Below are positions 526 through 16,950 of a stretch of DNA of 64,000 bases, piece after piece. Origin of the DNA: Bradyrhizobium liaoningense (lineage in GTDB: Bacteria; Pseudomonadota; Alphaproteobacteria; Rhizobiales; Xanthobacteraceae); contig NZ_JAFCJM010000020.1 in NCBI RefSeq assembly GCF_018130955.1, positions 1-64,000 of the forward strand, given 5' to 3'. A program made the translations under genes and the position numbers. How positions within the stretch are numbered: the first letter of the stretch is position 1; the number at the start of each line of letters is the position of its first letter. The notes below the pieces were generated by a model that saw only the letters and a program-made list of their open reading frames with translations, was not told where the DNA came from and did no database searches.

Positions 526-840
526 TCACAATTTCTCAATCCGGCTCGCCTCGTAGAGGTCGATCGTGGTCGGGGCGGCCGCTAGCGACCGCAGCGCATA
601 GACGAATTCACCTGATGCAGGCACCCTGAAATGGGCAGCCAAGGCCGCCTTGTCAGCCCATTGCTCGAAAAATACCAGCCGGAGCGGATTCTCGCAGTCG
701 ATGTGCACGGCGTGCGAGATGCAGCCGGGCTCGGTGCGTGAGCGATGCACATGTTCGAGGCTGAGCCGGCGCACCTCGTCGAACGTCTCTGGCCGGGCCG
801 TCACGCTTCCTGTCACCACGATCATCACGCGCTCCGTCAT
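526..840 (-). CDS. antibiotic biosynthesis monooxygenase (ABM) domain protein
   Basis: A 104-residue single-domain protein of the dimeric alpha/beta-barrel ABM/YgiN type. Seen: an N-terminal strand (VMIVVTGSVTARP), a helix with RRLSLEHVHRSRTEPGC, the strand-turn H-IDCENPLRLVFFEQWAD and a second helix DKAALAAHF, in the order typical of YgiN and quinol monooxygenases. The substrate cannot be told from sequence; members oxidise quinols or degrade haem, or simply bind ligands. The start codon overlaps the stop of the upstream DUF2161 gene by 4 nt (ATGA), so the two are translationally coupled. Confidence 0.85.
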   Translation of the reverse strand: MTERVMIVVTGSVTARPETFDEVRRLSLEHVHRSRTEPGCISHAVHIDCENPLRLVFFEQWADKAALAAHFRVPASGEFVYALRSLAAAPTTIDLYEASRIEKL

Positions 841-1523
841 TTCGCCGCAGCATCCAGCGCCATCTCGACGGCCGGCTGTTGCGGCCAGCGTTTGAGCGCG
901 GCATGCCCCGCGTCCGTCAGCTCGTAGACCCCGCGCTCGGCGCGCGCGAACCAGCCATAGACGTTGTGCAAGAGAATCTTGCCGGCATCCGGGCATTGCA
1001 CGCGCAATTCGCGCACCTTGCGCGGGCCTGCCGCAAGCTGGGATGCGCAGGCCAGCGCCTGCTGGCGATAGGCGGTCATGATCGGCGCGCGCGTGCTGCC
1101 GCCGAGCACGGGATCGCCCTGGCGGCGCTGGTGTTCGGCAACGAGTCGCGAGCGCTTCTTTGGCTCGCGGCGCGGTGCTGATGTCGGCGGCTTGACCAGC
1201 ACCTCGACCTGGCCGCGATCGGTCACGCCGAGCATGCCGAAGCCGAGGCGGCGGCACAAATTGCGATAGCGCGCATCGCTCTCGCGTCCCTTGCCGCGCG
1301 ACGACATCTTTGCGGCGATCCAGATCTCGTCGCCTTTTGGCGCGCGATCGACCGCCTGTAGAATCAGTTCGAGGTTGAAGGCGAGCTTGAGTTCGCCGAT
1401 CACCACGACGGGCGGATCATCGCCGCTGAGGCCCACGAGATCGCAGCCCCCGATTTCGCCCTTCACGGTGAAACCAAGCTTTTCCAGGAAGCATTTGACG
1501 GGCAGATAGAGCGCGGTTTCCAC
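837..1523 (-). CDS. DUF2161 family PD-(D/E)XK-type protein
   Basis: A 228-residue cytosolic protein. The first 130 residues match the DUF2161 fold, regarded as a putative PD-(D/E)XK phosphodiesterase: around residues 27-47 the sequence reads GCDLVGLSGDDPPVVVIGEL followed by KLAF, which gives the D-xn-E-x-K metal-binding pattern. The C-terminal part (about 150-228) looks like a winged-helix unit (REL-RVQCPDAGKILLHNVYGWF-RAERGVYELTDAG). The basic linker between them is low complexity. It is the first gene of a two-gene operon with the ABM protein. The biological substrate is unknown. Confidence 0.85.
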   Translation of the reverse strand: METALYLPVKCFLEKLGFTVKGEIGGCDLVGLSGDDPPVVVIGELKLAFNLELILQAVDRAPKGDEIWIAAKMSSRGKGRESDARYRNLCRRLGFGMLGVTDRGQVEVLVKPPTSAPRREPKKRSRLVAEHQRRQGDPVLGGSTRAPIMTAYRQQALACASQLAAGPRKVRELRVQCPDAGKILLHNVYGWFARAERGVYELTDAGHAALKRWPQQPAVEMALDAAAK

Positions 1524-1606
1524 GGGCGTTCCGGCGACAGAATCAGTGCGGGCAGTCTAGCCCGGATTGATCCCGCGCTGATCGGGCCTTTCGAAGGAGG
1601 GTGAAG

Positions 1607-2302
1607 CTAAACCCGCCCGCTCACCGGGATCAGGGCGCCGGTGACCGCGCTCGCGGCGTCGCTCGCCAGGAACAGGATCACCTCGGCGAGCTCCTGCGGC
1701 GTGACCCATTTGGCGAAATCGGCGTTCGGCATGCTGGCGCGGTTGGCCTGCGTGTCGATGATCGAGGGCAGCACGGCATTCACAGTGACCTTGCCCTTCC
1801 ATTCGTTGGCGAGCGCCTCGGTCAACCGGTGCACGCCGGCCTTCGAGGCCGCATAGGGGCCCATGCCGGAGCCGGCCTGCAACGCGCCCATGGCGCCGAC
1901 ATTGACGATGCGGCCGCTGCCGGAGGCGGCGAGATGCGACAGCGCGGCGCGCGAGGTATTGAGCGCGGTCAGCACGTTGAGCGCATACATGCGCTGCCAT
2001 GTCTTGATGTCGCCGTCGCCGATCGTCTCGAAGGCAAAGCCGCCGGCGATGTTGATGAGCGCATCCAGCCGGCCGAAATGTTTTGCGGCGGCATCGATCG
2101 CCTTCTTTGCCTGCGCCTCGTCAGACAAGTCGACGCCGCCGATCTCGATGCGGTCTGCCGTGGCGGGCACTTGCGACGGCGCATGGTCGATACCGGCCAC
2201 GCGCGCGCCACGGGCTTGCGCGATCTGGGCGACCACTTGGCCCAGGGCGCCGAGCGAGCCGGTTATGACAATGACTTTTCCCTGCACGGTGCTCTCCGTC
2301 AT
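1607..2302 (-). CDS. SDR family NAD(P)-dependent oxidoreductase
   Basis: A 231-residue classical short-chain dehydrogenase. Seen: the nucleotide-binding TGSLGALG at residues 15-22, an acidic residue after beta-2 (GIDHAP) suggesting NAD preference, NIAGG in place of NNAG, a serine-poor active-site strand (VNVGAMGAL, where Ser is normally present) and YAASK (Tyr/Lys). The substitution around the catalytic Ser is worth noting. It is monocistronic and divergent from the SGNH hydrolase gene across 100 bp. The substrate is unknown. Confidence 0.9.
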   Translation of the reverse strand: MTESTVQGKVIVITGSLGALGQVVAQIAQARGARVAGIDHAPSQVPATADRIEIGGVDLSDEAQAKKAIDAAAKHFGRLDALINIAGGFAFETIGDGDIKTWQRMYALNVLTALNTSRAALSHLAASGSGRIVNVGAMGALQAGSGMGPYAASKAGVHRLTEALANEWKGKVTVNAVLPSIIDTQANRASMPNADFAKWVTPQELAEVILFLASDAASAVTGALIPVSGRV

Positions 2303-2402
2303 TTCTGTTCGACCGGACTATTGCTCCGCCCGAATTGGACTTGCAATGGCGATGCCTTGAAGGCTGAATGATGGCTACAACTTTAGATCGCAGGTTGTTC
2401 CC

Positions 2403-3194
2403 ATGACAGATGATTTTCCAACCATCGATTTTCCCGCTGAGATCGTCGACATGAAATACCCGCTCACGCATTTTCAAGAGGCGCTGAGCGGACGCGGCGC
2501 GGTGCAGATCGTGGCGCTGGGGTCGTCCTCGACCGCGGGCCTGTACAACGTCGTGTCTTATCCGGCACGGCTCGAGCTGTATCTGAGGGCGCATTACAAG
2601 GACCACGATCCGCATCAGAACATCCGGATCGACGTGTTCAACCGCGGTAAGGGCGGGGAGGAGGCGCCCGAAGAGCTCGATCGCTTCCAGACCGACATTT
2701 TCCAAGACAATCCAGCGCTGGTGATCTGGCAGGTCGGAACCAATGCGGTGTTTCACAACGACCAATACGACGTCGACGTCGTCGCCGCGAAGATCGAGGA
2801 GGGACTGGGACGCCTGTGCGGCCACAACTTCGACGTTCTGCTGATCGATCCGCAATACACGACGAAAATGCTCTGGGACGACCGCGCCGAGCTGTCAGAC
2901 AGGATGGTGCGTCTGATCCGCGCCGCAGCGGACAAGGCCGAGGTCAATCTGTTCCAGCGCTGGGCCTTGATGCGGCACTGGCACGTTCACAACAAGGTCC
3001 CGCTCGAGCTGATGGTGGACAAGGCCGATCACGACATGCTGCTGCACCAGAGCGACTGGAGCACCATGCAGGTCGCGCGGGCGCTGACGTCGGCTATTCT
3101 CAAGAAAGCCGGCGCGACGAAGAAGTGCGACTGCCTGATTACGACTGGAGATAACGCGCCCGCAGCGCCTCTCGCTCCGCCGGGCCAATCCTGA
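2403..3194 (+). CDS. SGNH/GDSL hydrolase family protein
   Basis: A 263-residue protein with the SGNH blocks in order: block I VALGSSSTAG (residues 37-46, containing the nucleophile Ser), block II NRGKGGEE (Gly) and block III WQVGTNA (Asn, about residue 112). The usual block V DxxH seems to be supplied by VDKADHDMLLH near residue 210. There is no signal peptide, so it is probably cytosolic, acting on an ester or acyl group. The C-terminus runs 56 nt past the 3' end of the convergent phosphatase gene, so both transcripts overlap tail to tail. Confidence 0.85.
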   Translation: MTDDFPTIDFPAEIVDMKYPLTHFQEALSGRGAVQIVALGSSSTAGLYNVVSYPARLELYLRAHYKDHDPHQNIRIDVFNRGKGGEEAPEELDRFQTDIFQDNPALVIWQVGTNAVFHNDQYDVDVVAAKIEEGLGRLCGHNFDVLLIDPQYTTKMLWDDRAELSDRMVRLIRAAADKAEVNLFQRWALMRHWHVHNKVPLELMVDKADHDMLLHQSDWSTMQVARALTSAILKKAGATKKCDCLITTGDNAPAAPLAPPGQS

Positions 3195-3882
3195 GCCCGT
3201 CCCGCAAATAGGTTTCGAGATCACCATACTCGGCACGCACCGCCTCGAAGCCGGCGTTGAGGTAGGAAGCCTCGACGCTCCCGATCGCGTTGCGCACGTC
3301 GTCAGGCAGCTCTGTCGCAGCCGACGCTTCGCGCCGATAGAACTGGTTGGTCAGCAGATAGTCTTCCGCGATGATGTCATCGGACACGCCGAGTGCGTGC
3401 AGGATCAGCGCGCTGGCAAAGCCGGTGCGGTCCTTGCCGGCGGTGCAGTGGATGACGAATGGCGCGTGGTCTTCGAGCAGATGGCCGAACAGCGCGCGAA
3501 AACTGTGCGTGTTGTGGCGGACATAGTTGCGGTAGGATTCGCGCATGATCTCCAGCGCAACGGGCGCCGTCAGCGTGCCGGCTTCGAGCCGCGCGCGCAG
3601 CGCGGCGACCACCGTCGGCTCGATCGGCAGGGAATGTACGGTGATCTCGCGCATGCCGCAGACGCCGGTTGTGCGCTCCTCGACGCCGCGGAAGTCGAAC
3701 GCGCGCGTCACACCGAGGCCGCGGACGATCGCGACGTCGGCCTCGGTGAGTTGACCGAGATGGTTGGAGCGAAAGATCTGCCGCCAGCGCGTCAGGCGGC
3801 CGTCTGCGGCCGGATAGCCGCCGAGGTCGCGAAAATTGCTGGCGCCTTGCAGATTGAGGTGACGGGAAGGGGAGTCTGACAT
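3139..3882 (-). CDS. tyrosine-protein phosphatase (PTP-like, HCxxGKDRTG)
   Basis: A 247-residue protein with the signature P-loop HCTAGKDRTG at residues 145-154 (Cys nucleophile, Arg phosphate binder). The Lys/Asp in the loop is typical of the bacterial family related to lipid phosphatases and MptpB. The N-terminal NFRDLGGYPAADGRL is the conserved start of that family. There is no signal peptide. It may dephosphorylate phosphotyrosine or phosphoinositides; the sequence cannot decide. The 3' end overlaps the convergent SGNH gene. Confidence 0.92.
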   Translation of the reverse strand: MSDSPSRHLNLQGASNFRDLGGYPAADGRLTRWRQIFRSNHLGQLTEADVAIVRGLGVTRAFDFRGVEERTTGVCGMREITVHSLPIEPTVVAALRARLEAGTLTAPVALEIMRESYRNYVRHNTHSFRALFGHLLEDHAPFVIHCTAGKDRTGFASALILHALGVSDDIIAEDYLLTNQFYRREASAATELPDDVRNAIGSVEASYLNAGFEAVRAEYGDLETYLRDGLRIGPAEREALRARYLQS

Positions 3883-3960
3883 CTGGGCAGCTTGAGCTAT
3901 CTTGTTGGCGAAGATCGGCGCGTGGCTGACGCGTCGGGCAGTCCATTACAGGGGGCGAAC

Positions 3961-4278
3961 ATGGGCCGGCACAAGGCCATTATTTTGGCTGTCGCAATTC
4001 TGGCGGGCGGAACTGCGAGCATGCGGCCGGCGGCGGCGCAGACGTTCCAGAATTATCACTGCGCCGATGGTACCAATTTCATCGTCGGTTTTTATGACTA
4101 CGACAAGCGCGCCTTCGTGCAGATCGACGGCACGTCGCTGCCGCTGAAGAAGCGGGTGACGCTGTCGGGTGCGCGCTATTCGGGAGCAGGGATCACGCTG
4201 AAGATCGGCAAGGGCGGCACGACGGTTCAGCATCTCAAGCGGCCGGTCACGGCCTGTGAACCGATCCAGCGATCATGA
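3961..4278 (+). CDS. MliC-like periplasmic lysozyme inhibitor domain protein
   Basis: A 105-residue exported protein. The start at 3961 (MGRHKAIILAV) gives a clean signal peptide cut after about residue 26 (PAAAQ); the longer frame from 3892 would bury it. The mature part matches the MliC/PliC beta-barrel: YHCADGTNFIVGFYDYDKR, then a second strand set with KKRVTLSGARYSGAG, ending TACEP. The two Cys (YHC and TAC) would form the conserved disulfide. The family inhibits C-type lysozyme in the periplasm. A strong terminator follows. Confidence 0.8.
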   Translation: MGRHKAIILAVAILAGGTASMRPAAAQTFQNYHCADGTNFIVGFYDYDKRAFVQIDGTSLPLKKRVTLSGARYSGAGITLKIGKGGTTVQHLKRPVTACEPIQRS

Positions 4279-4281
4279 ATC

Positions 4282-4317
4282 AAAAAGGGTCGAAACGCCG
4301 TTGTTTCGACCCTTTTT
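4282..4317. terminator. bidirectional rho-independent terminator
   Basis: A 15-bp inverted repeat (AAAAAGGGTCGAAAC and its complement) with a 6-nt loop. It has a T run on both strands, so it can end the MliC-like gene (plus) and the gstI-like gene (minus). Confidence 0.9.
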
Positions 4318-4372
4318 CAAACTTCCGCCGGGCGCTTGGCGCAGGGCGGTACTTCCGAAGTCGGTAAAGGCA

Positions 4373-4576
4373 TCAGCGATCCCATTTCGGTTTGGCTTCC
4401 TCGATCGCCTCCTGATGATACCAGCTTCCGCTGCACACCGTTTCGACCACGGGGGTTGAGCCCTGATTGGCCGGCAGCCTGGGCTCGCCGTAGCGGCGAC
4501 CCCCGAGGGCGGCACGGCCCCCGACCGGAAACTGGAAGATCTCAGCAGATCCGACACTCAGACCATTGTTCATCAT
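4373..4576 (-). CDS. gstI: DUF2735 small protein, GstI-like regulator of glutamine synthetase II
   Basis: A 67-residue protein, starting MMNNGLSVGS behind an AAGGAG at 9-nt spacing. It has the DUF2735 pattern: an N-terminal IFQFPVGGRAALGG, a middle VVETVCSGSWYH and the helix QEAIEEAKPKWDR. Known from Rhizobium leguminosarum: a gene of this size and divergent position, gstI, lowers translation of glnII mRNA. Here it sits head to head with glnII, 537 bp apart, so I infer the same role. The longer frame from 4681 and the overlapping frame 4273-4557 are rejected. The symbol is by position and family, not by experiment. Confidence 0.75.
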   Translation of the reverse strand: MMNNGLSVGSAEIFQFPVGGRAALGGRRYGEPRLPANQGSTPVVETVCSGSWYHQEAIEEAKPKWDR

Positions 4577-4853
4577 TGCGGTAGTCTCCTTGAGCCGGAG
4601 CGGTTGACCTCCATCGTGCGCCCGACTCGTTCGCTTGTGGTTACTGGAATCCCCATATCGGCCGCCCCTTTCGAAATTCAAAGTGCTGAAAAGGAAATCA
4701 CTACTGGCCTATTTTTTGAGCAGTGAGAGTTCTGCACCCTCCAAGGCAGCCCTTGACTGACTAACGCGTGGGCCATTCCGAAGGTTGCGGGCAGACGGCC
4801 GTCGGCTTCGCAAATATTGCGGGCGCCTGATGCGCGTTTCATCGGCAGGGCGG

Positions 4854-4871
4854 TGCACAACCCCAGGTGCA
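4854..4871. promoter_or_regulatory. candidate NtrC-type dyad upstream of glnII
   Basis: TGCAC-N8-GTGCA lies about 140 bp upstream of the -24/-12 promoter of glnII, a distance usual for enhancer sites. The NtrC consensus is TGCACC-N5-GGTGCA, one base shorter between the arms, so the match is imperfect. A further TGCACC half-site starts at 4733. The assignment is tentative. Confidence 0.45.
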
Positions 4872-5013
4872 TCAGAATCGGGCGTTTTCCGCGGGATTTT
4901 TGCGGTGCGGGGTAACGCAGTCGTGCGCTGCTATGACGCACTCGCCTGTGAATTGCCGCGCGCCGGCGGGACCGGGTTCCCCGCAGTGGAAAACCGCCAG
5001 TTCTGCGGCGTTT

Positions 5014-5028
5014 TGGCACGTTAAATGC
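5014..5028 (+). promoter_or_regulatory. sigma-54 (-24/-12) promoter of glnII
   Basis: TGGCACGTTAAATGC has the invariant GG (5015-5016) and GC (5027-5028) at the exact sigma-54 spacing, with TGGCACG fully matching the -24 box. It is the only such site in the gstI-glnII intergenic region that I found. Transcription from about 5040 would give a leader of roughly 75 nt. glnII of Bradyrhizobium is known to be NtrC/sigma-54 dependent. Confidence 0.85.
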
Positions 5029-5067
5029 TTGTAAGCGGGCGGCCGATGGTGGCCGGGTACAACGTGC

Positions 5068-5084
5068 GGGGGCCTGAGGTCCCC
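5068..5084 (+). promoter_or_regulatory. hairpin in the glnII 5' leader
   Basis: GGGGGCC-TGA-GGTCCCC can fold into a 7-bp stem (one G-T wobble) with a 3-nt loop, 29 nt before the glnII start codon. It lies in the leader between the predicted start of transcription and the GAGAGG ribosome-binding site. It is a candidate target for the translational control attributed to GstI; this is inference. Confidence 0.4.
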
Positions 5085-5113
5085 ACCTTTCGCATCATCT
5101 ACAGAGAGGCTCA

Positions 5114-6148
5114 ATGACCAAGTACAAGCTCGAGTACATTTGGCTCGACGGATATACGCCGACTCCGAATTTGCGCGGCAAAACTCAGATCAAGGAATTT
5201 TCGTCGTTCCCCACGCTCGAGCAGCTTCCGCTCTGGGGTTTTGACGGCTCCTCCACCCAGCAGGCCGAAGGCCACAGCTCCGATTGCGTGCTGAAGCCGG
5301 TCGCTGTCTTCCCGGACGCTGCGCGCACCAACGGCGTGCTGGTGATGTGCGAAGTCATGATGCCCGATGGCAAGACCCCGCACGCGTCCAACAAGCGCGC
5401 GACCATCCTGGACGACGCTGGCGCCTGGTTCGGCTTCGAGCAGGAATACTTCTTCTACAAGGACGGCCGTCCGCTCGGCTTCCCGTCGTCCGGCTATCCG
5501 GCCCCGCAGGGCCCGTACTACACCGGCGTCGGCTACTCGAACGTCGGCGACGTCGCCCGCAAGATCGTCGAAGAGCATCTCGACCTCTGCCTCGCGGCCG
5601 GCATCAACCATGAAGGCATCAACGCGGAAGTCGCGAAGGGCCAGTGGGAATTCCAGATCTTCGGCAAGGGCTCCAAGACCGCTGCCGACCAGATGTGGAT
5701 GGCCCGCTACCTGATGCTGCGCCTGACCGAGAAGTACGGCATCGACATCGAGTTCCACTGCAAGCCGCTCGGCGACACCGACTGGAACGGCTCCGGCATG
5801 CACGCCAACTTCTCGACCGAGTATATGCGCACGGTCGGCGGCAAGGAGTACTTCGAGGCGCTGATGGCGGCCTTCGACAAGAACCTCATGGACCACATCG
5901 CCGTCTACGGCCCGGACAACGACAAGCGTCTGACCGGCAAGCACGAGACCGCGCCCTGGAACAAGTTCAGCTACGGCGTGGCCGACCGCGGTGCTTCGAT
6001 CCGCGTTCCGCACTCCTTCGTCAACAACGGTTACAAGGGCTATCTGGAAGACCGTCGTCCGAACTCGCAGGGCGACCCATACCAGATCGCTTCGCAGATC
6101 CTGAAGACGATCTCGTCCGTGCCGACCGACAAGAAGGCGGCCGCCTAA
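5114..6148 (+). CDS. glnII: glutamine synthetase type II (GSII)
   Basis: A 344-residue eukaryote-like glutamine synthetase that condenses glutamate and ammonia with ATP; it works as a cytosolic octamer. Seen: the beta-grasp N-terminal part with PLWGFDGSSTQQAEG (residues 39-53), the metal/ATP site WFGFEQEYFFYK, the GMHANFSTEYM motif, the loop NDKRLTGKHETAPWNKFSYG and the arginine site DRGASIRVPHSF. Length and order are normal for GSII and all these motifs look intact. GSII is characteristic of rhizobia beside the bacterial GSI. It starts behind GAGAGG, is transcribed from a sigma-54 promoter and is followed by a terminator, so it is monocistronic. Confidence 0.97.
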   Translation: MTKYKLEYIWLDGYTPTPNLRGKTQIKEFSSFPTLEQLPLWGFDGSSTQQAEGHSSDCVLKPVAVFPDAARTNGVLVMCEVMMPDGKTPHASNKRATILDDAGAWFGFEQEYFFYKDGRPLGFPSSGYPAPQGPYYTGVGYSNVGDVARKIVEEHLDLCLAAGINHEGINAEVAKGQWEFQIFGKGSKTAADQMWMARYLMLRLTEKYGIDIEFHCKPLGDTDWNGSGMHANFSTEYMRTVGGKEYFEALMAAFDKNLMDHIAVYGPDNDKRLTGKHETAPWNKFSYGVADRGASIRVPHSFVNNGYKGYLEDRRPNSQGDPYQIASQILKTISSVPTDKKAAA

Positions 6149-6191
6149 GATCCTCCGGCCCGGGCTGGGGGGCTTGCCCGGGCTGGCAATC

Positions 6192-6227
6192 AAATCCGCC
6201 GAGGCCGAAAGGCCTTGGCGGATTTTT
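6192..6227 (+). terminator. rho-independent terminator of glnII
   Basis: AAATCCGCCGAGGCC-GAAA-GGCCTTGGCGGATTTTT: a 15-bp stem with a single G-T pair, a GAAA tetraloop and a T run, 44 nt behind the glnII stop codon. Confidence 0.9.
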
Positions 6228-6350
6228 GCATTTTCATGACAACTCGCCCGCGCGGCGAAATTGGTGCGGCATTCTCGGTGCGCGCTATATCCAGCCTGGG
6301 CGAAAGCGGGATAAACTGCGTGCCGGATGCGCGCAGGCCGGGGACGGCTG

Positions 6351-7055
6351 GTGTTTGAAGGTTTCTACAAGGTTCAGTATGGCCTCGCCGGCGCCGTCGG
6401 CCGGAGCGTGATGCATGTCGGCAACGGCAAGATGCTGGGCGGCAACTCGGCCTTTGCGCATATCGGCACTTACGAGAAGACCGCCGAAGGTCTCACGATT
6501 GAGATCAAGACCTTTCGTCACAATCCCGATCCCCACTATCGCGCGATGGCGGGGACCGACAATGCGACCCTGATCGCCAAGGGTTGGGCGGACGGCGATC
6601 TCGTTCGCTTCAAGGGCGAGATGAAAGAACTGCCCGGCGTGCCCTTCCAATCCGTGATGACGCCGCTGAGGGAGGACGAGGCGCCGATCGCCGGCGGCGT
6701 CGGCGAGGGCGGCATCGTCGACGGGCTCTACTCCATCCATTTGCGGATGCTCGACGGTGTGGACGGCGGCTTGACCGGCGTGATGCTGCTCAACCAGGGC
6801 CGCATTCTCGGCGGCGATGCCTCCTTCTACTATCTCGGCAGCTACACGGCCGCGAATGGCCGCTGGAAGGGGCAGATCCTCAACCAGGAGCATACGCCGG
6901 CGCGCGACGAGAACCCGGTGTTCGGCGGCCATGAGGTCGGCATCGGCTTCTCCGGCACCTATGACGACGATCACGCGGTGCTGGAAGCAACCGCGCTGGC
7001 GGGCAAGCGCAGCCTGCGCCTGACCGCCACGCTGCGGCTGATGCACCGCCTCTGA
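6351..7055 (+). CDS. GrlR-family protein with two GrlR-like repeats
   Basis: A 234-residue cytosolic protein. I chose the GTG at 6351 because GGGGA lies 6 nt before it; an ATG at 6327 (242 aa) has no clear ribosome-binding site. The protein is two copies of a GrlR-like beta-barrel unit: GFYKVQYGLAGAVGRSVM with LGGNSAFAHIGTY (residues about 3-40), then GLYSIHLRMLDGVDGGLTG with LGGDASFYYLGSY (about 123-160). GrlR of enteropathogenic E. coli is a dimeric repressor of one such unit that binds GrlA. No GrlA or type III secretion gene is nearby, so the role here is unknown. A paralogue lies at 9587. Confidence 0.8.
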   Translation: MFEGFYKVQYGLAGAVGRSVMHVGNGKMLGGNSAFAHIGTYEKTAEGLTIEIKTFRHNPDPHYRAMAGTDNATLIAKGWADGDLVRFKGEMKELPGVPFQSVMTPLREDEAPIAGGVGEGGIVDGLYSIHLRMLDGVDGGLTGVMLLNQGRILGGDASFYYLGSYTAANGRWKGQILNQEHTPARDENPVFGGHEVGIGFSGTYDDDHAVLEATALAGKRSLRLTATLRLMHRL

Positions 7056-7080
7056 TCGGGCAATCTAAGCAGGGCTGTCC

Positions 7081-7767
7081 ATGGACGACACGATCCGCAT
7101 GCTCTCCACGCTTGGGCTAATGGGCGCGATGCGCAGCCTGTCGTCGGTCTGCGAAGCCGCAATTGGTATGCGCATCGACGCCGACTACGCGCCGACCATG
7201 GCGCTGCTGAAGCGGCTGCGCGCGGGCGAGACAGCCGATCTCGTGATCCTCACCCGCGAAGGACTCGACGAGGTCATTGCCGAGGGCCGCGTGGCCGCCG
7301 AAAGCGCGGTCGACCTGGCGCGCTCCTACGTCGGCATCGCGGTCAGGGCAGGGGCTGCGTATTCCGACATCACAACCGAAAGCGCGCTGCGCAAGACGCT
7401 GCTTGCGGCGCGCGCGGTTGCCTATTCGCGGCTGGGGGCGAGCGGCATCTATTTCGCGCAACTGATCGAGCGCCTCGGGATTGCCGATAAGATCAACGAC
7501 CGCGCCGTCATCGTGCAGCAGGGCTTTACGGCCGAGCGGCTGGTGAGCGGCGAGGCCGATCTCGCCATACAGCAGGTCAGCGAATTGAAGCAGGTTGCCG
7601 GCATCGAGGTCGTGGGTCCGATTCCGCGCGAATTGCAGACGCCGGCGCTGTTTTCCGCCGGCCGGATGGTTGCCGCGAAAGACGCTGTGGCCGCCGACCG
7701 GTTGCTGCGTTATCTCGCATCCGCCGAGGCCGCGCCGGCCTTGCGGGCGTCGGGACTCGAGCCTTGA
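7081..7767 (+). CDS. ModA-like substrate-binding domain protein without signal peptide
   Basis: A 228-residue protein of the type II periplasmic-binding fold (SBP_bac_11, ModA-like): an N-terminal strand-helix MLSTLGLMGAM, then DADYAPTMALLKRLRAGETADLVILT (usual anion-binding lobe), a hinge around YSRLGASGIYFAQLIERLG and the final AADRLLRYLASAEAAPALRASGLEP helix. ModA proteins are exported, but this one begins directly with the mature fold and has no leader, so it is predicted to be cytosolic. It may be a ligand sensor rather than a transporter part. It follows the GrlR-like gene by 25 bp and probably shares its transcript. Confidence 0.8.
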   Translation: MDDTIRMLSTLGLMGAMRSLSSVCEAAIGMRIDADYAPTMALLKRLRAGETADLVILTREGLDEVIAEGRVAAESAVDLARSYVGIAVRAGAAYSDITTESALRKTLLAARAVAYSRLGASGIYFAQLIERLGIADKINDRAVIVQQGFTAERLVSGEADLAIQQVSELKQVAGIEVVGPIPRELQTPALFSAGRMVAAKDAVAADRLLRYLASAEAAPALRASGLEP

Positions 7768-7799
7768 ATTTGCCGATTGCCGGACGCAACCTGCGCGCC

Positions 7800-8618
7800 A
7801 TGCGAAAGATCGCCTTCGTTCTCTTGCTCGCTCTCGCGTCGCCCTTTCAGGCGCACGCGCAATCGGCCGACCTCGTGCTGTGCGACAGGCTGGCAGCCGA
7901 TCCCAGCGATCCCGACAAGCCGGCCGATGTCCGGGGCGTGGCTGACGTTGCGTCCGCGGACATTCCGACCGCGATCAAGTTCTGCAAGACGGCGTCGGGC
8001 GCCTCGCGGCGCGCGATGTTCCAGCTCGGTCGCGCCTATGCCGCCAACCGGCAGATGCCGGAAGCGATGGCGGCCTGGCGCAAGGCCGCCGACAAGGGCT
8101 CGACCTCGGCGATGGTCGAGCTCGGCGTGCTCTACGGCACGGGCGCGGGCGTCGCGAAGGACGAGGCGCAGGCACGAAAACTGTTCGAGAAGGCGGCGGA
8201 AGCCGGCAATCCCCGCGGCGTCAGCAATCTCGCGGCCATTGGCGGCGGTACGGCCGCGCCAGCCGATCCGGCGCGCTCGCGCGAGCTGCTCGGCAGGGCC
8301 GCCGAGACCAATGCGGAGGCGCAGTATCAGCTCGGCCTGATGCTGTCGAACGGCAGCGGCGGCCAGCAGGACGACGTTGCGGCGCGTGCGATGTTCGAAA
8401 AGGCGGCGGCGAAAAACCATCCCGGCGCACTGGAGCGGATGGGCGCTTTCGCGCAGGAAGGCCGCGGCGGTCCGAAGGACAAGGACGCCGCAAAGGCCTA
8501 TTACGAGCGCGCCGCGGCGCTCGGCGACGAAGATGCCAAGAAGGCGCTGGAGCGGATTCGCTGTCCCTACGCGATCAAGAACAAGCAGGGCCAGCTCGTC
8601 ACCACCCTGTGTTTCTGA
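7800..8618 (+). CDS. Sel1-repeat exported protein
   Basis: A 272-residue protein. The ATG at 7800 gives a signal peptide MRKIAFVLLLALASPFQAHAQ; the frame is open from a TTG at 7764 that overlaps the upstream stop, but that would bury the leader. The rest is made of Sel1/TPR-like helical repeats (AMFQLGRAYAANRQMPEAMA, AMVELGVLYGTGAGVAKDEA, AQYQLGLMLSNGSGGQQDD, ALERMGAFAQEGRGGPKD), each about 36 residues. Such proteins scaffold protein contacts in the periplasm. Two Cys occur in the mature N-terminal third and two near the C-terminus. Confidence 0.88.
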   Translation: MRKIAFVLLLALASPFQAHAQSADLVLCDRLAADPSDPDKPADVRGVADVASADIPTAIKFCKTASGASRRAMFQLGRAYAANRQMPEAMAAWRKAADKGSTSAMVELGVLYGTGAGVAKDEAQARKLFEKAAEAGNPRGVSNLAAIGGGTAAPADPARSRELLGRAAETNAEAQYQLGLMLSNGSGGQQDDVAARAMFEKAAAKNHPGALERMGAFAQEGRGGPKDKDAAKAYYERAAALGDEDAKKALERIRCPYAIKNKQGQLVTTLCF

Positions 8619-8715
8619 TCGCATCCACCAGATTCGGAAGGCATTGATCGAGCGCAACACCCTGCGCCGCCGCGGCACGATAGATTGCATCGCAAGAACA
8701 ACAACGGAGCTTGCG

Positions 8716-9186
8716 ATGAAACTTCGATGCGGGATGGTGGTGCTGGCCTGGCTGGCATCCTCCACGGTGGTTGCGATGGCCCAGGATCTCAAATCACCGA
8801 CCGCGAGCGACTATGTGCCGAAGCTCGGCGATATCATGAGCGCGGCGCAGGCGCGTCACCAAAAGCTCTGGCTCGCCGGCAAGGCCCAAAACTGGGAGCT
8901 CGCGGCCTACGAGCTGCATCAGCTCAAGGCAAGCCTCGTCGAAGCGGCCTTGCTCTACTCCGGCATTCCCGTCAGCAACGTCACGACGCTGGAGCCGTCA
9001 TTGCAGTCTGTCTCGGATGCGATCGGGGCCAAGGACGGTCGCAAGTTCGCGAAGGCGCTGGGCGAACTCACTGAGGGCTGCAATGCCTGTCACCGGTCGA
9101 TGGGGCGGAGTTTCGTCGTGATGCGGGTTCCTGTCGACCAGCAGCCGTTCGGCAATCAAGCGTTTCAGCCGCAGGGCAAGCCGTGA
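8716..9186 (+). CDS. class II-like c-type cytochrome
   Basis: A 156-residue protein with a signal peptide cut near VAMAQ (residue 23), a helix-rich middle and a single haem motif CNACH at residues 122-126, close to the C-terminus. This position is that of cytochrome c' (class II), not of ordinary class I cytochromes. The start at 8716 has GGAG at 6 nt; the reading frame is open much further upstream but that part is a shadow of the Sel1 gene. The redox partner is unknown. Confidence 0.8.
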   Translation: MKLRCGMVVLAWLASSTVVAMAQDLKSPTASDYVPKLGDIMSAAQARHQKLWLAGKAQNWELAAYELHQLKASLVEAALLYSGIPVSNVTTLEPSLQSVSDAIGAKDGRKFAKALGELTEGCNACHRSMGRSFVVMRVPVDQQPFGNQAFQPQGKP

Positions 9187-9246
9187 AGGAACTTCCATCT
9201 TGCGGTCGCGCTTGAGGGGAAGGGGGCGCCAAGAGGAGGAGCGATC

Positions 9247-9396
9247 ATGATCCGCAAGCTGCGATCCGGCGAATACCGGCTCTATTCGCGCAAGGTCAAT
9301 CCGAAGACCGGCCGACGCCGCAACCTCGGCACCTTCAAGAGCCGCGCGGCGGCCGAGAAGCACGAGCGCGAGGTGCAGTATTTCAAGCGTCACTAA
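9247..9396 (+). CDS. small basic conserved protein (49 aa)
   Basis: A 49-residue, strongly basic protein starting MIRKLRSGEYRLYSRK and ending EREVQYFKRH, behind an excellent AGGAGG about 8 nt upstream. The sequence KSGEYRLYSRKV-like core followed by NLGTFKSRAAAEKHEREV resembles the strand-strand-helix N-terminal part of integrase arm-binding domains and is also similar to short proteins I recall from Bradyrhizobium. There is no signal peptide. It may bind nucleic acid; this is inference from charge and shape only. Confidence 0.75.
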   Translation: MIRKLRSGEYRLYSRKVNPKTGRRRNLGTFKSRAAAEKHEREVQYFKRH

Positions 9397-9504
9397 GGCG
9401 TGATGAGCGTCCTGCCGGTGCCAAAAAACAAAACGTCGAAAACAACCCCATGCACAGTAGAAAAGGAGAGCGTTACGAGCGATTGCTGATTTTACGAAAA
9501 TCGC

Positions 9505-9534
9505 TTGACCCGTCGGGCAAATCAGGTGTATATT
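9505..9534 (+). promoter_or_regulatory. sigma-70-like promoter before the second GrlR-like gene
   Basis: TTGACC, an 18-bp spacer and TATATT match the housekeeping -35/-10 boxes. The alternative TTG start at 9533 would lie inside the -10 box, which supports the downstream start at 9587. The surrounding 40 bp (CGCTTGACCCGTCGGGCAAA) resemble a sequence I recall as repeated in Bradyrhizobium genomes; no second copy was seen in this window. Confidence 0.6.
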
Positions 9535-9586
9535 GCCATCATCGCGAGGGATGGGCCCACCAACGGCGGGACCGCGGAAAAGCCTG

Positions 9587-10369
9587 ATGGATCCCGATGG
9601 ATTCGGTGCGGCGGCGGTGCTAGGTAGCGCGCAACTCGCAAATGGTTTTCCGGGATTTTTTTCGTTGCCGAACGGGCTCTACAAGGTCGAATGCGGCGTC
9701 AACGACGCCTTCGGCCGCAGCATCATGTGCATGCACAACGGCAGGCTGCTCGGCGGCAATTCGGCGTTTGCCCATCTCGGCACCTACGAGGAGCGCGATA
9801 GCGGGATCATCGCAGAAGTGATCACCCAACGTCACAACCACGACCCCTATTACAAATCGCTGTTGGGGAGCGACGCGATGTCCGTCAGCCTGCTCGGCCG
9901 GCCCCACGAAAAGGGCATCCGCTTCGAAGGCGAGGCCGCGCCGGCTCCGGGTTCGCTGTTCTGGGCCGAACTCACGCGGCTCGAGGACGATGCATTGCCG
10001 CCGCGGGGCACAGTCGGAGCAGCCGGCATCGCGAACGGGCTCTACTCCATCCACCTGAACGCGCTTGACGGTGTCGATGGCGGGCTGTCCGGCGTGATGC
10101 TGCTGATGGACGGCCGCATCCTCGGTGGTGACGCGTTCTTCTACTATCTCGGCTCATATTCGTCGGAGAACGGCCGCTGGAAGGGCGAGATCCTCAATCA
10201 GGAGCATACGCCGGCGCGCGGCGAGAACCCGGTATTCGGTGGCCATGAGGTCGGGATCGGCTTTTCCGGCAGCTGCAACGACGAGGGTGGCGAGCTGGAA
10301 GGCATCGCGCTCGCGGGCAAGCGCAGCCTGCGGCTGGCGGCGTCGCTCAAGCTGATGCGCCGCGCGTAG
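9587..10369 (+). CDS. GrlR-family protein with two GrlR-like repeats (paralogue)
   Basis: A 260-residue paralogue of the protein at 6351. I use the ATG at 9587 because it lies downstream of the predicted promoter and has GGAAAAG before it; TTG 9533 and ATG 9551 are possible but unlikely. It adds a 32-residue N-terminal extension, then repeat 1 (GLYKVECGVNDAFGRSIM with LGGNSAFAHLGTYEE) and repeat 2 (GLYSIHLNALDGVDGGLSG with LGGDAFFYYLGSYSS). By eye the C-terminal repeat is nearly identical to that of the first copy, while the N-terminal repeat has diverged. Function unknown. Confidence 0.8.
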   Translation: MDPDGFGAAAVLGSAQLANGFPGFFSLPNGLYKVECGVNDAFGRSIMCMHNGRLLGGNSAFAHLGTYEERDSGIIAEVITQRHNHDPYYKSLLGSDAMSVSLLGRPHEKGIRFEGEAAPAPGSLFWAELTRLEDDALPPRGTVGAAGIANGLYSIHLNALDGVDGGLSGVMLLMDGRILGGDAFFYYLGSYSSENGRWKGEILNQEHTPARGENPVFGGHEVGIGFSGSCNDEGGELEGIALAGKRSLRLAASLKLMRRA

Positions 10370-10443
10370 AACGTTAGGACGTCTATTGGCTCAACCACGG
10401 AAGCGTCGACTGCGGCATTTGTCGGGTGCCGTCGACTGCGTCG

Positions 10444-10890
10444 CTAGCGCTTTGGCTTGGACAACGAGCGCTTTTGAGCGGCTTCTTGAGCATCTTGCAG
10501 GGACTTCGGCAGCAATTTGACAGCGTTAATATCGACGGTCTTCTGCTTGTCTCCACTTCCGTCGATCGAGAATTCATGCGGCTTTATTTGCATGATGCCT
10601 GGCTGCATTTTCAAGGTTTCGAATCGACTATCCTTTGCGCGAGAGTCTGATTCCGGGCACGTCCCACCTGGAGAGCTCTCACAAAAGCACCAGCCCACAC
10701 CTGTGACAGTGTCGGTCTCGTCTAGGCTGTCAAGGATGGTTTGACCGTTAATTCTGCAAGCTGCCGGCGTCGAGAACTCCATGGTGGTGCTGCTCTTGAG
10801 CGTCCATACAGACTTGGCTTTACGTGTTGCCGTATCCACGTGTTGAGCCGGCGGAGTGGAGAACAACAAGAGGAATAGGACGTATTTCAT
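10444..10890 (-). CDS. exported hypothetical protein (148 aa)
   Basis: A protein of unknown family with a short leader (MKYVLFLLLFSTPPAQ), so probably exported. The mature part has four Cys (AACRING, GWCFCESSPGGTC) that could form two disulfides, and a C-terminal Lys/Gln-rich helix (KSLQDAQEAAQKRSLSKPKR). It overlaps the upstream lipoprotein gene by 4 nt (ATGA), so the two are co-translated. The coding region looks richer in A and T than its neighbours, which hints at acquisition from elsewhere. Confidence 0.7.
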   Translation of the reverse strand: MKYVLFLLLFSTPPAQHVDTATRKAKSVWTLKSSTTMEFSTPAACRINGQTILDSLDETDTVTGVGWCFCESSPGGTCPESDSRAKDSRFETLKMQPGIMQIKPHEFSIDGSGDKQKTVDINAVKLLPKSLQDAQEAAQKRSLSKPKR

Positions 10891-11708
10891 TGAACGGCCT
10901 TCAGGCTGCGGAGCGTGTTTTGCAGTTGCTGAAGATCAAGACGCTGGTTGGCAACGGTAGCGGAGATCGCGGCCGCATTGCGGACATTCGAATTGATATC
11001 TGCAACTGGCAGAGTTCTGACAGTGTACGGCTTTGGCGGTGGATCAATGGGCGTCATGCTAATCTGCAACTGTTCGTCGATGGAATAACTTCCCGATGCA
11101 GCAACAAATGCGCCGCCAAACGGAAACGCGTAGCTATAACTTCCGTCGCCGTTGAACCTGATCGTTATTTGAGTGTTATAGCTTGGACTGTCTGCGTTGG
11201 CGGACGGATTGACATTCAGTGCGGAAGCACTCCGAACGAGCCAATCATACAAGCCTAGGTTATTCGTAAGTGCGTTGAATGTCGGGCTGGTGTCGCTGCA
11301 ATCGAGTCGGATTTCCTTGATCAAATCGCCCGAGTTGATCTTGAAAGTGATCGCACTGTTGCGCTCACCCGTCGCGTTGACGGCTAGACCCGGTGGAGAT
11401 CCGATGACCCACGAAGTGGAATAGGGCGCCCCGATCGAGGAGCTTCTTCCATTGTAACCTGCGCCGGCCGTGATCGCGGAGTCGACCTTCGGCAGGAGTG
11501 CGATGCTGATCAGCCAATATCGCGGCTTGAACCGGGCGAAAGTAGGCTGGTCCAGATATCTAAGCGCTGTCTGCAGCCCACAGCTTGCGTTCAAAAGAAT
11601 TTCCGCAACTGGAAGCTGCGTTTCTCGCGGAATATCCGGGACTAGGCTGCAACCTGCAACAAGGGCTGTTGCCCCTGCGGATAAGAACGCTCGACATAGT
11701 CTCCACAT
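10887..11708 (-). CDS. putative lipoprotein (273 aa)
   Basis: The start at 11708 gives MWRLCRAFLSAGATALVAGC, a signal peptide with the lipobox VAGC at residues 17-20; a GGGGGG ribosome-binding site lies upstream. The longer frame to 11990 runs antisense through a methyltransferase remnant and is rejected. The mature protein contains beta-rich stretches (AITFKINSGDLIKEIRLDC, TQITIRFNGDGSYSYAFPFG) and a C-terminal coil-like helix (VANQRLDLQQLQNTLRSL). No family is recognised. Base composition is less GC-rich than the flanks. It is first in a two-gene operon. Confidence 0.72.
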   Translation of the reverse strand: MWRLCRAFLSAGATALVAGCSLVPDIPRETQLPVAEILLNASCGLQTALRYLDQPTFARFKPRYWLISIALLPKVDSAITAGAGYNGRSSSIGAPYSTSWVIGSPPGLAVNATGERNSAITFKINSGDLIKEIRLDCSDTSPTFNALTNNLGLYDWLVRSASALNVNPSANADSPSYNTQITIRFNGDGSYSYAFPFGGAFVAASGSYSIDEQLQISMTPIDPPPKPYTVRTLPVADINSNVRNAAAISATVANQRLDLQQLQNTLRSLKAVQ

Positions 11709-11710
11709 GA

Positions 11711-12262
11711 TTGCCGCCCCCCAATGCGACCACCACGCGCTGATTGAAATAGGCGCTGTAACCAAAGGTAGAATATCCGAGGATACGGCTTTGGCAAGTG
11801 CGCTCGCGGCCGGCGTGGACGCATCCCTCGGGCAGATCGTGCGCGCCCGGCGGAATGTTCCGGAGGCGAATTTCGTCCACGCGGATATGACGAGCATCCA
11901 GCTCCCTACCGGGTCGTTTGACGCCATATCTGCTTTCTGTTCGATGACGCATGTGTCGGGGAACGAGCATGCAGCCCTCATTCGGCGCATCGCGTCGTGG
12001 CTTCGGCCGGATGGGATCTTCGTGGCGAGCTTTGGATCGGCGGAAGGCGACTGGCTGAGATTGGCTCGGCACTCCGATGTTCTTCAGCCATCTTGATCCC
12101 GATGAGACGAAGCGACTCGTCGTCGACGCTGGTTTCGACATCGAGCAAGCAGAGTTGCTCAAGCAGGACAACGAAGATGCAGTATTCCTTTGGATCTCGG
12201 CGCGCCTGAGCATGAGGGCACGTACCGACAAGGGGCGGTCAATGTCCGCTTCGCCCCGATAG
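11711..12262 (+). pseudogene. decayed class I SAM-dependent methyltransferase
   Basis: Two frames together give the second half of a Ubiquinone/menaquinone-type methyltransferase. Frame 1 (to about 12060) has GVDASLGQIVRARRNVP, the motif II NFVHADMTSIQLPTGSFDAI and the ASWLRPDGIFVASFG strand. Frame 2 continues with WLGTPMFFSHLDPDETKRLV and VFLWISARL (to about 12208). The Gly-rich SAM motif I is missing: the N-terminal part begins only with degraded sequence (ISEDTALASALAAGVDAS). A missing N-terminus plus an internal frameshift mean the gene is dead. It lies divergent from the lipoprotein gene. Confidence 0.75.
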
Positions 12263-14607: not shown

Positions 14608-14735
14608 GTGCAATCTCCCGGAAGAAGCCGAGCGTTGCACAGGCTTGGACGGCGGAGCCGTCTGGCGGGGAGCCTGTGGTGTCCCCGTGCGCGAAACCTA
14701 GCGGCGGAGCGTCTCCGCGGCAAGAAACTTCGCGG

Positions 14736-16756: not shown

Positions 16757-16950
16757 CGATGTCGTCGAGTTCCCATTCGATGTGCCTCCCTCATACTCCC
16801 TTGTGATCGCGCGGGACGCGCTGGTCCCTCACAATTATTGCATGGCCATCGTGATCGGCGGTACTAATGTCGGCGGGGACAAGCAGACTCCCCTTCAGAC
16901 GCGCGTCGTCCAAGCTCTGCGCAACACTCGATTTGTCGAGGGGATTGCGC

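Follow-up and report, generated by a model that had tools for sequence, protein, structure and literature searches.

This analysis concerns a pair of paralogous genes, P1 and P2, near the start of a 64,000-nucleotide stretch of Bradyrhizobium liaoningense DNA (assembly GCF_018130955.1, contig NZ_JAFCJM010000020.1, positions 1 to 64,000; here called the window), which is the beginning of contig C72 of an 8.29 Mb genome. Each gene encodes a protein in which two GrlR-fold units are joined in one chain. A prediction made earlier from the window's letters alone had placed paralogous double-unit open reading frames (ORFs) here, and we confirm both:

P1, 6351 to 7055, plus strand: double GrlR-fold protein of 234 residues with a GTG start; N unit at 6357 to 6674, C unit at 6720 to 7049
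P2, 9665 to 10369, plus strand: double GrlR-fold protein of 234 residues, likely with a TTG start; N unit at 9671 to 9991, C unit at 10034 to 10363

The end of P2 is at 10369, and TTG at 9665 is its likely start because a longer in-frame extension is not conserved among orthologues. The genes lie 2.6 kb apart on the same strand, and their products are 60% identical across almost their full length. A unit-profile search of the same genome finds 8 genes with 11 units of this family, namely the doubles P1, P2 and a third on contig C103, and single-unit genes on contigs C73, C71, C46, C70 and C18. The third double (L216, 8717 to 9442) adjoins mutS, with glnD about 4 kb off, and one single-unit gene (L218, 8146 to 8529) starts 30 bases past a NAD synthase ORF.

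Each protein consists of two homologous units

P1 and P2 are each built from two units of ~108 residues and a linker of ~13 residues. A hidden Markov model (HMM) trained on 13 single-unit sequences and on none from a double (the 13 singles had originally been found with profiles that contained units of doubles), returns two full-length domains on P1, with independent E-values of 9.7e-18 and 2.7e-31, and two on P2 (3e-21 and 1.3e-31); the best full E-value among 2000 shuffles searched with the same model was 0.24. The halves also find each other directly by BLASTP, at 2e-5 over 40 residues in P1 and at 4.6e-11 over 107 residues in P2. Among 145 doubles taken from 80 loci and the window, where 42 more ORFs are a single unit or a fragment, the gap between the units is strikingly constant, at 13 residues in 141 and 14 in the other 4. 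Together with the strands of the structural model described below, these data bear out that two GrlR-like units are fused in each protein, and the comparison of the singles-only HMM with the shuffles rules out that the repeats are an artefact of alignment by eye.

The units have a GrlR-like fold

An AlphaFold model of P1 (26 sequences) has a mean predicted local distance difference test score (pLDDT) of 88.2, a predicted template modelling score (pTM) of 0.86 and 8 + 8 strands, and the C unit of P2, modelled alone (32 sequences), reaches a pLDDT of 87.1; the eight-stranded barrel of GrlR is present in both. When the whole P1 model is searched with Foldseek, a TbpB lobe ranks first (E 3.7e-4, TM 0.27) and GrlR second (2ovs; E 1.7e-3, probability 1.00, TM 0.72 by target), while with the lone P2 C unit as query the PDB yields three GrlR chains and no other match at E<=0.001. 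Structural alignment with VIA-align places the P1 N unit (model residues 1-111) on GrlR 4kt5_A with a Z of 13.2 (2.6 Å, 104 residues) and residues 1-108 on GrlR 2ovs with a Z of 12.8; the P2 C unit aligns with 2ovs at Z 11.6 (2.8 Å over 100 residues) and with 4kt5_B at Z 11.4. The predicted structures thus give the fold that had been expected, and a GrlR-like fold of the P1 and P2 units is well supported by the models.

The sequence link to GrlR is much fainter. Neither P1 nor P2 matches the Pfam family GrlR (PF16518) at E<=1, one of 12 individual units does (E 0.0019), and the best match genome-wide is the C73 single at 18.0 bits, under the gathering cut-off of 26.8. A profile of the 12 units searched against 177,635 PDB sequences finds only GrlR up to E 10 (E 0.074 and 0.087); phmmer searches of the PDB with P1 and P2 singly do not reach it. 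NCBIfam and PADLOC gave nothing useful for either protein. Three of the genome's singles weakly match phrog_2483, a PHROGs family of unknown function (best E 1.1e-4); tblastn of one of these three against phages gave nothing at E<=0.01, no relative was confirmed in the viral contigs searched, and a plasmid search yielded one partial match (32%) in Sphingobium.

Doubles are conserved in Bradyrhizobium and occur in sister genera

A search with P1 across 100 genomes gave matches in all 60 of the genus (own genome included) and in 1 of 40 from other families of the order. The match is of double length in 56 of the 60, and a full-length P1 match at 72-100% identity is listed for 49. The unit profile has matches in 13 of 385 genomes in a sample of the class and in 91 of 248 in a sample of the family. 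No double was found in the class sample outside Bradyrhizobium, the loci fetched carrying one unit or a weak piece, and the family sample has doubles in other genera too. The double proteins are old and conserved in Bradyrhizobium and occur in its sister genera. Of 20 Bradyrhizobium regions compared, most of them picked for a P1 match, 18 carry an intact P1, 1 has an interrupted P1 and 1 has none; P2 occurs in 18. Farther upstream, a third gene of the family, PA, is a double in 7 of these regions and has single length in 5. In the remaining 8, which include the sister locus L029, PA was not seen, and it is also missing from the window. Among the loci L046, L030, L107, L110 and L142, P1 is interrupted in one species, P2 is split in two in another, and extra C-unit fragments lie downstream of P2 in some; such broken copies and fragments suggest continuing duplication and decay. 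The Bradyrhizobium P1 locus also appears, at 82% identity, in a record titled Frankia sp. RB7 (L159), and it looks as if the title is wrong or the assembly contaminated. Literature searches, which covered mainly journals without subscription, showed no paper on double GrlR proteins among the matches listed.

Selection on the C unit is the probable main source of the asymmetry

The C repeats of P1 and P2 had been said to be far more alike than the N repeats, in protein and in DNA, and this holds: in the window the C halves share 77% of amino acids and 80% of nucleotides, versus 44% and 59% for the N halves. The original prediction attributed the difference to gene conversion or to selection on one half. 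Comparing P1 with P2 from the same genome gives 43% amino acid identity for N and 74% for C (mean of 17 pairs), and 272 pairs taken across genomes give practically the same values (43% and 73%). Orthologues share the bias, with N and C identities of 78 and 85% between P1 proteins, 74 and 86% between P2 proteins, and 61 and 85% between PA proteins. At four-fold sites the N and C values are 64 and 66% for P1, 66 and 66% for P2, 59 and 65% for P1 against P2, and 58 and 70% for PA (7 sequences). In a tree of the halves from 20 regions, the P1 C and P2 C halves form separate clades.

If gene conversion between P1 and P2 held their C halves alike, partners from one genome should stand out, and in a small way they do. 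In 62 loci with both genes, C-half nucleotide identity is 0.747 compared with 0.744 (s.d. 0.0009) after shuffling of partners, a value beaten or equalled in only 38 of 5000 shuffles; the excess is 0.3 points. C-half third positions show 0.589 observed and 0.585 shuffled (257 of 5000 as high), and the N halves give no signal (2551 and 2182 of 5000 shuffles reach the observed values). In the window's own pair, which is above average, C-half third positions are 0.664 identical versus 0.592 and 0.580 with other genomes, and a 30-codon stretch is 91-96% alike between P1 and P2 both in the window and in sister L029. Against this, none of the 62 loci was flagged by our conversion-tract criterion. Because orthologues show an equal bias, the C halves form separate clades, the same-genome excess is 0.3 points and tracts are absent by that criterion, we attribute the asymmetry mainly to what appears, from sequence comparison, to be stronger purifying selection on the C unit. 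Short local conversion in the window's lineage may have made a small contribution beside it. Of the two causes offered originally, selection is thus favoured, and conversion as the main cause is very improbable.

A probable single fusion of two distinct subunits

To place the units of doubles among the singles we used a first tree of 64 units and a second of 53, from which 11 rows were left out: the units of four doubles, two of them long-branched PA doubles and a further two from other genera, and three singles (C18, a single-unit PA gene, and a single at the PA place of another genus). In the 53-unit tree, all N units and the C46 single (L006) fall on one side of a branch with support 100/98, and all C units group with the C73 and C71 singles (L004 and L005) and a PA single with support 100/99; singles of the C70 type and singles from other families of the class lie between the N and C groups. 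Forcing N and C together makes the tree 37.3 log units worse, with an approximately unbiased test p-value (p-AU) of 0.035. This pattern suggests one ancient fusion of two distinct subunits rather than a tandem duplication, because the N units group with one single and the C units with others. A tandem duplication within one single-unit gene would make the N-type and C-type singles the products of later losses; single C-type genes at the PA place do group with PA doubles in one tree, and the alignments are short and the branches long. We nevertheless consider such an origin unlikely in view of the two well-supported groups, each holding singles, and the poorer fit of the tree that keeps N and C together.

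Neighbouring genes and regulation

The following features surround P1 and P2 in the window:

5114 to 6148, plus strand: GlnII-type glutamine synthetase, above the Pfam cut-off (NCBIfam GlnII 394 bits, cut-off 500)
6195 to 6227, plus strand: terminator-like hairpin and T run in the gap between glnII and P1, seen by eye
7081 to 7767, plus strand: ModA-like substrate-binding protein, 25 bases past P1, with no signal peptide by eye
7764 to 8618, plus strand: Sel1-repeat protein (Pfam)
8716 to 9186, plus strand: weakly cytochrome c'-like protein, below the Pfam cut-off, in 3 of the 20 Bradyrhizobium regions
9247 to 9396, plus strand: basic protein of 49 residues, no Pfam family
9427 to 9545, plus strand: copy of a dispersed promoter-like repeat upstream of P2, with TTGACC at 9505-9510 and TATATT at 9529-9534

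The GlnII gene is the upstream neighbour of P1 in 20 of 20 Bradyrhizobium regions. The hairpin between them is kept in all 16 sequences aligned (16 of 76), followed by at least 4 T in 14, so that P1 is probably not transcribed from glnII. The ModA-like gene is present in 19 of the 20 regions, and the region without P1 also lacks it. At 92-98% identity in 18 of 20 regions, the 49-residue basic protein is conserved above all neighbours except GlnII.

A search for a partner shared by double proteins had been proposed, and no neighbour is constant across the 20 regions from other genera that were read, 18 of the same family and 2 of other families. The Sel1 gene is matched in 6 of these and an ABM-domain gene in 3; the GlnII and ModA-like genes, considered as universal partners, were rejected with matches in 0 of 20 (tblastn, E<=1e-8).

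The dispersed repeat upstream of P2 is ~110-120 bases long with a core, AACAACCCCATGCACAGTAG, of 20 bases. Genome-wide, this core is matched at 84 sites with up to 2 mismatches (reversed control, 0), and 15 of the 16 P2 leaders aligned (16 of 61) carry it or a close variant. In 6 of 9 listed copies the core is followed by TTGAC and then a -10-like box, and the repeat may be a mobile promoter. It is not the same as Br-REP1 or Br-REP2 of PMC5082802. A second leader motif, TGCTAGNTAGC at 9608-9628, is kept in all 16 of the aligned P2 leaders; a longer form of the pattern occurs once more genome-wide (1 mismatch) and its reversed control twice, which is no more than chance. Rfam gives only a chance-level match on the P2 leader (E 4.3). 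Elsewhere in the window, two chrB-b cis-regulatory RNAs score above the Rfam gathering threshold, at 14639-14687 (minus strand) and 16874-16920 (plus strand), ~2.2 kb apart.

No sign of a disease system

The original prediction saw neither GrlA nor secretion genes nearby. The GrlA family PF07180 has no match at E<=1 across the whole genome, and its model, run on 14 control genomes, matches in E. coli and Corynebacterium glutamicum, over the cut-off in one of them. A Pfam scan for secretion genes, which in the window covered the 14 ORFs from 526 to 11990, found none. The genome has four matches to the secretin model TIGR02516, all to the secretin domain alone and inside model positions 195-462. 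Many congeners also match at positions ~2-142, the N-terminal part that we take to be the mark of rhizobial RhcC1, which the four matches here do not cover. The model is unspecific, matching 60 of 60 genomes with none over the cut-off and 6 of 14 controls; the congener matches listed reach only E ~7e-19 and no count is drawn from them. Detection of a type III secretion system by TIGR02516 was dropped for this lack of specificity.

That the doubles are negative regulators of type III secretion, as the family name implies, would fit their GrlR fold, and a grlR-annotated gene of Sinorhizobium fredii is described as a predicted regulator of this kind in PMC9952627. Such a role is highly improbable here given a genome without the GrlA family and four secretin matches without the N-terminal part, to an unspecific model. 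Nothing found here links P1 or P2 to a disease system.

Possible function of the double proteins

The homologous units, the constant linker, the N and C clades, and the single-unit relatives of each type elsewhere in the genome lead us to propose as the best explanation, with a probability of about 0.4, that P1 and P2 are fused N-type and C-type GrlR-fold subunits that form an obligate pseudo-heterodimer and serve as cytosolic regulator-binding adaptors. Two already distinct subunits would have fused, most simply once, and the fused chain would have become an obligate pseudo-heterodimer in a lineage across several genera of one family. The double protein is probably cytosolic. Its constant C barrel may make a shared contact, with a common partner or ligand, and the faster-evolving N barrel may set what is specific to each paralogue. 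By analogy with GrlR, the barrel pair would bind and titrate a further protein, probably a regulator whose gene lies elsewhere, and a hydrophobic ligand inside the barrel may control this. GrlR is a cytosolic lipocalin whose cavity binds lipids, with two GrlR per GrlA helix-turn-helix (HTH), according to PMC4933562, and the GrlR dimer and the GrlR2-GrlA complex are treated in PMC9979310.

A plain ligand carrier is nearly as likely as an adaptor or sensor. The doubles might, somewhat doubtfully, be carriers of small molecules or lipids, like fatty-acid-binding proteins (FABPs) or lipocalins, with no role in gene control and a likeness to GrlR in fold only. The barrel also matches designed ligand-binding barrels, Cap15, streptavidin-type proteins and lipocalins, the C barrel is strongly conserved, and no regulator is a constant neighbour in the regions read. 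Set against this, GrlR is the nearest natural match, for the C unit by Foldseek and by sequence profile, and the joining of two different barrels suggests a dimer function. We prefer a cytosolic adaptor or sensor because of the fold, because GrlR is reported to bind lipids and titrate an HTH, and because every double pairs an N with a C unit in a fixed plan.

Several observations weigh against the adaptor proposal. Designed barrels score as high as GrlR or higher by Z for both units, with values up to 13.6 on the C part of P1 (VIA-align) and up to 13.5 on the P2 C unit, for which the natural 1jmx (11.9) ties with GrlR, so that fold alone gives no function. An EDED-type loop, scanned for as four consecutive acidic residues at a position within the GrlR fold that we presume, is found in none of the 144 N loops and none of the 141 C loops located by pattern among the 145 doubles; 2-3 acidic residues occur in 112 of the N loops and 0-1 in 139 of the C loops. 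The EDED loop is named in the title of a paper cited in PMC9979310. No DNA-binding gene is a constant neighbour in the regions read, which were compared through window proteins or ORF lists rather than by a scan of every gene. The case against tandem duplication draws on 112 alignment columns with long branches at p 0.035, and the N/C grouping tested was named after the first tree had been seen. Finally, in 4 of the 60 genomes of the genus (G013, G031, G040 and G047) the best match is only single-unit in length or strength.

A more specific version, in which an ancestral GrlR-type heterodimer, unlike the homodimer of E. coli, is locked in one chain as a fixed-contact barrel and a barrel of changing specificity, and in Bradyrhizobium P1 and the ModA-like protein, co-oriented and apparently without a signal peptide, form a cytosolic sensing pair beside glnII, is decidedly unlikely. 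GrlR has so far been known as a virulence regulator, and here its fold is conserved, multi-copy and fused in Bradyrhizobium without GrlA, which suggests that E. coli GrlR represents a special case within a broader family of adaptors or sensors. The presence of two fixed, different barrels per chain makes binding testable barrel by barrel.

Comparison with known systems

The minimal eight-stranded Cap15 barrel (7n34) resembles the units at Z 12.0 (P1) and 11.5 (P2 C unit), with 9-12% identity. Cap15 has membrane helices, whereas the P1 and P2 C-unit models show no long helix, and PADLOC has no match for either protein. As modelled, the fold of the units appears compatible with lipocalin and FABP carriers. 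The singles of the same genome (C73, C71, C46, C70 and C18) belong to the same family, C46 being of N type and C73 and C71 of C type; unlike P1 and P2 they have one unit each and are located elsewhere in the genome. GrlR (L0044 of E. coli bearing the locus of enterocyte effacement; 2ovs, 3e3c and 4kt5; PF16518) shares with the units an eight-stranded barrel of ~110 residues and a weak but exclusive PDB profile match, and is the best natural match of the N unit by Z and of the C unit by Foldseek (1jmx ties with it there by Z). It differs in being a homodimer of single units, whereas P1 and P2 hold two different units per chain, and in its 18-19% identity to the P2 C unit. P1 and P2, for their part, are below PF16518, have no EDED-type loop, belong to a genome without GrlA, and are conserved genes of Bradyrhizobium.

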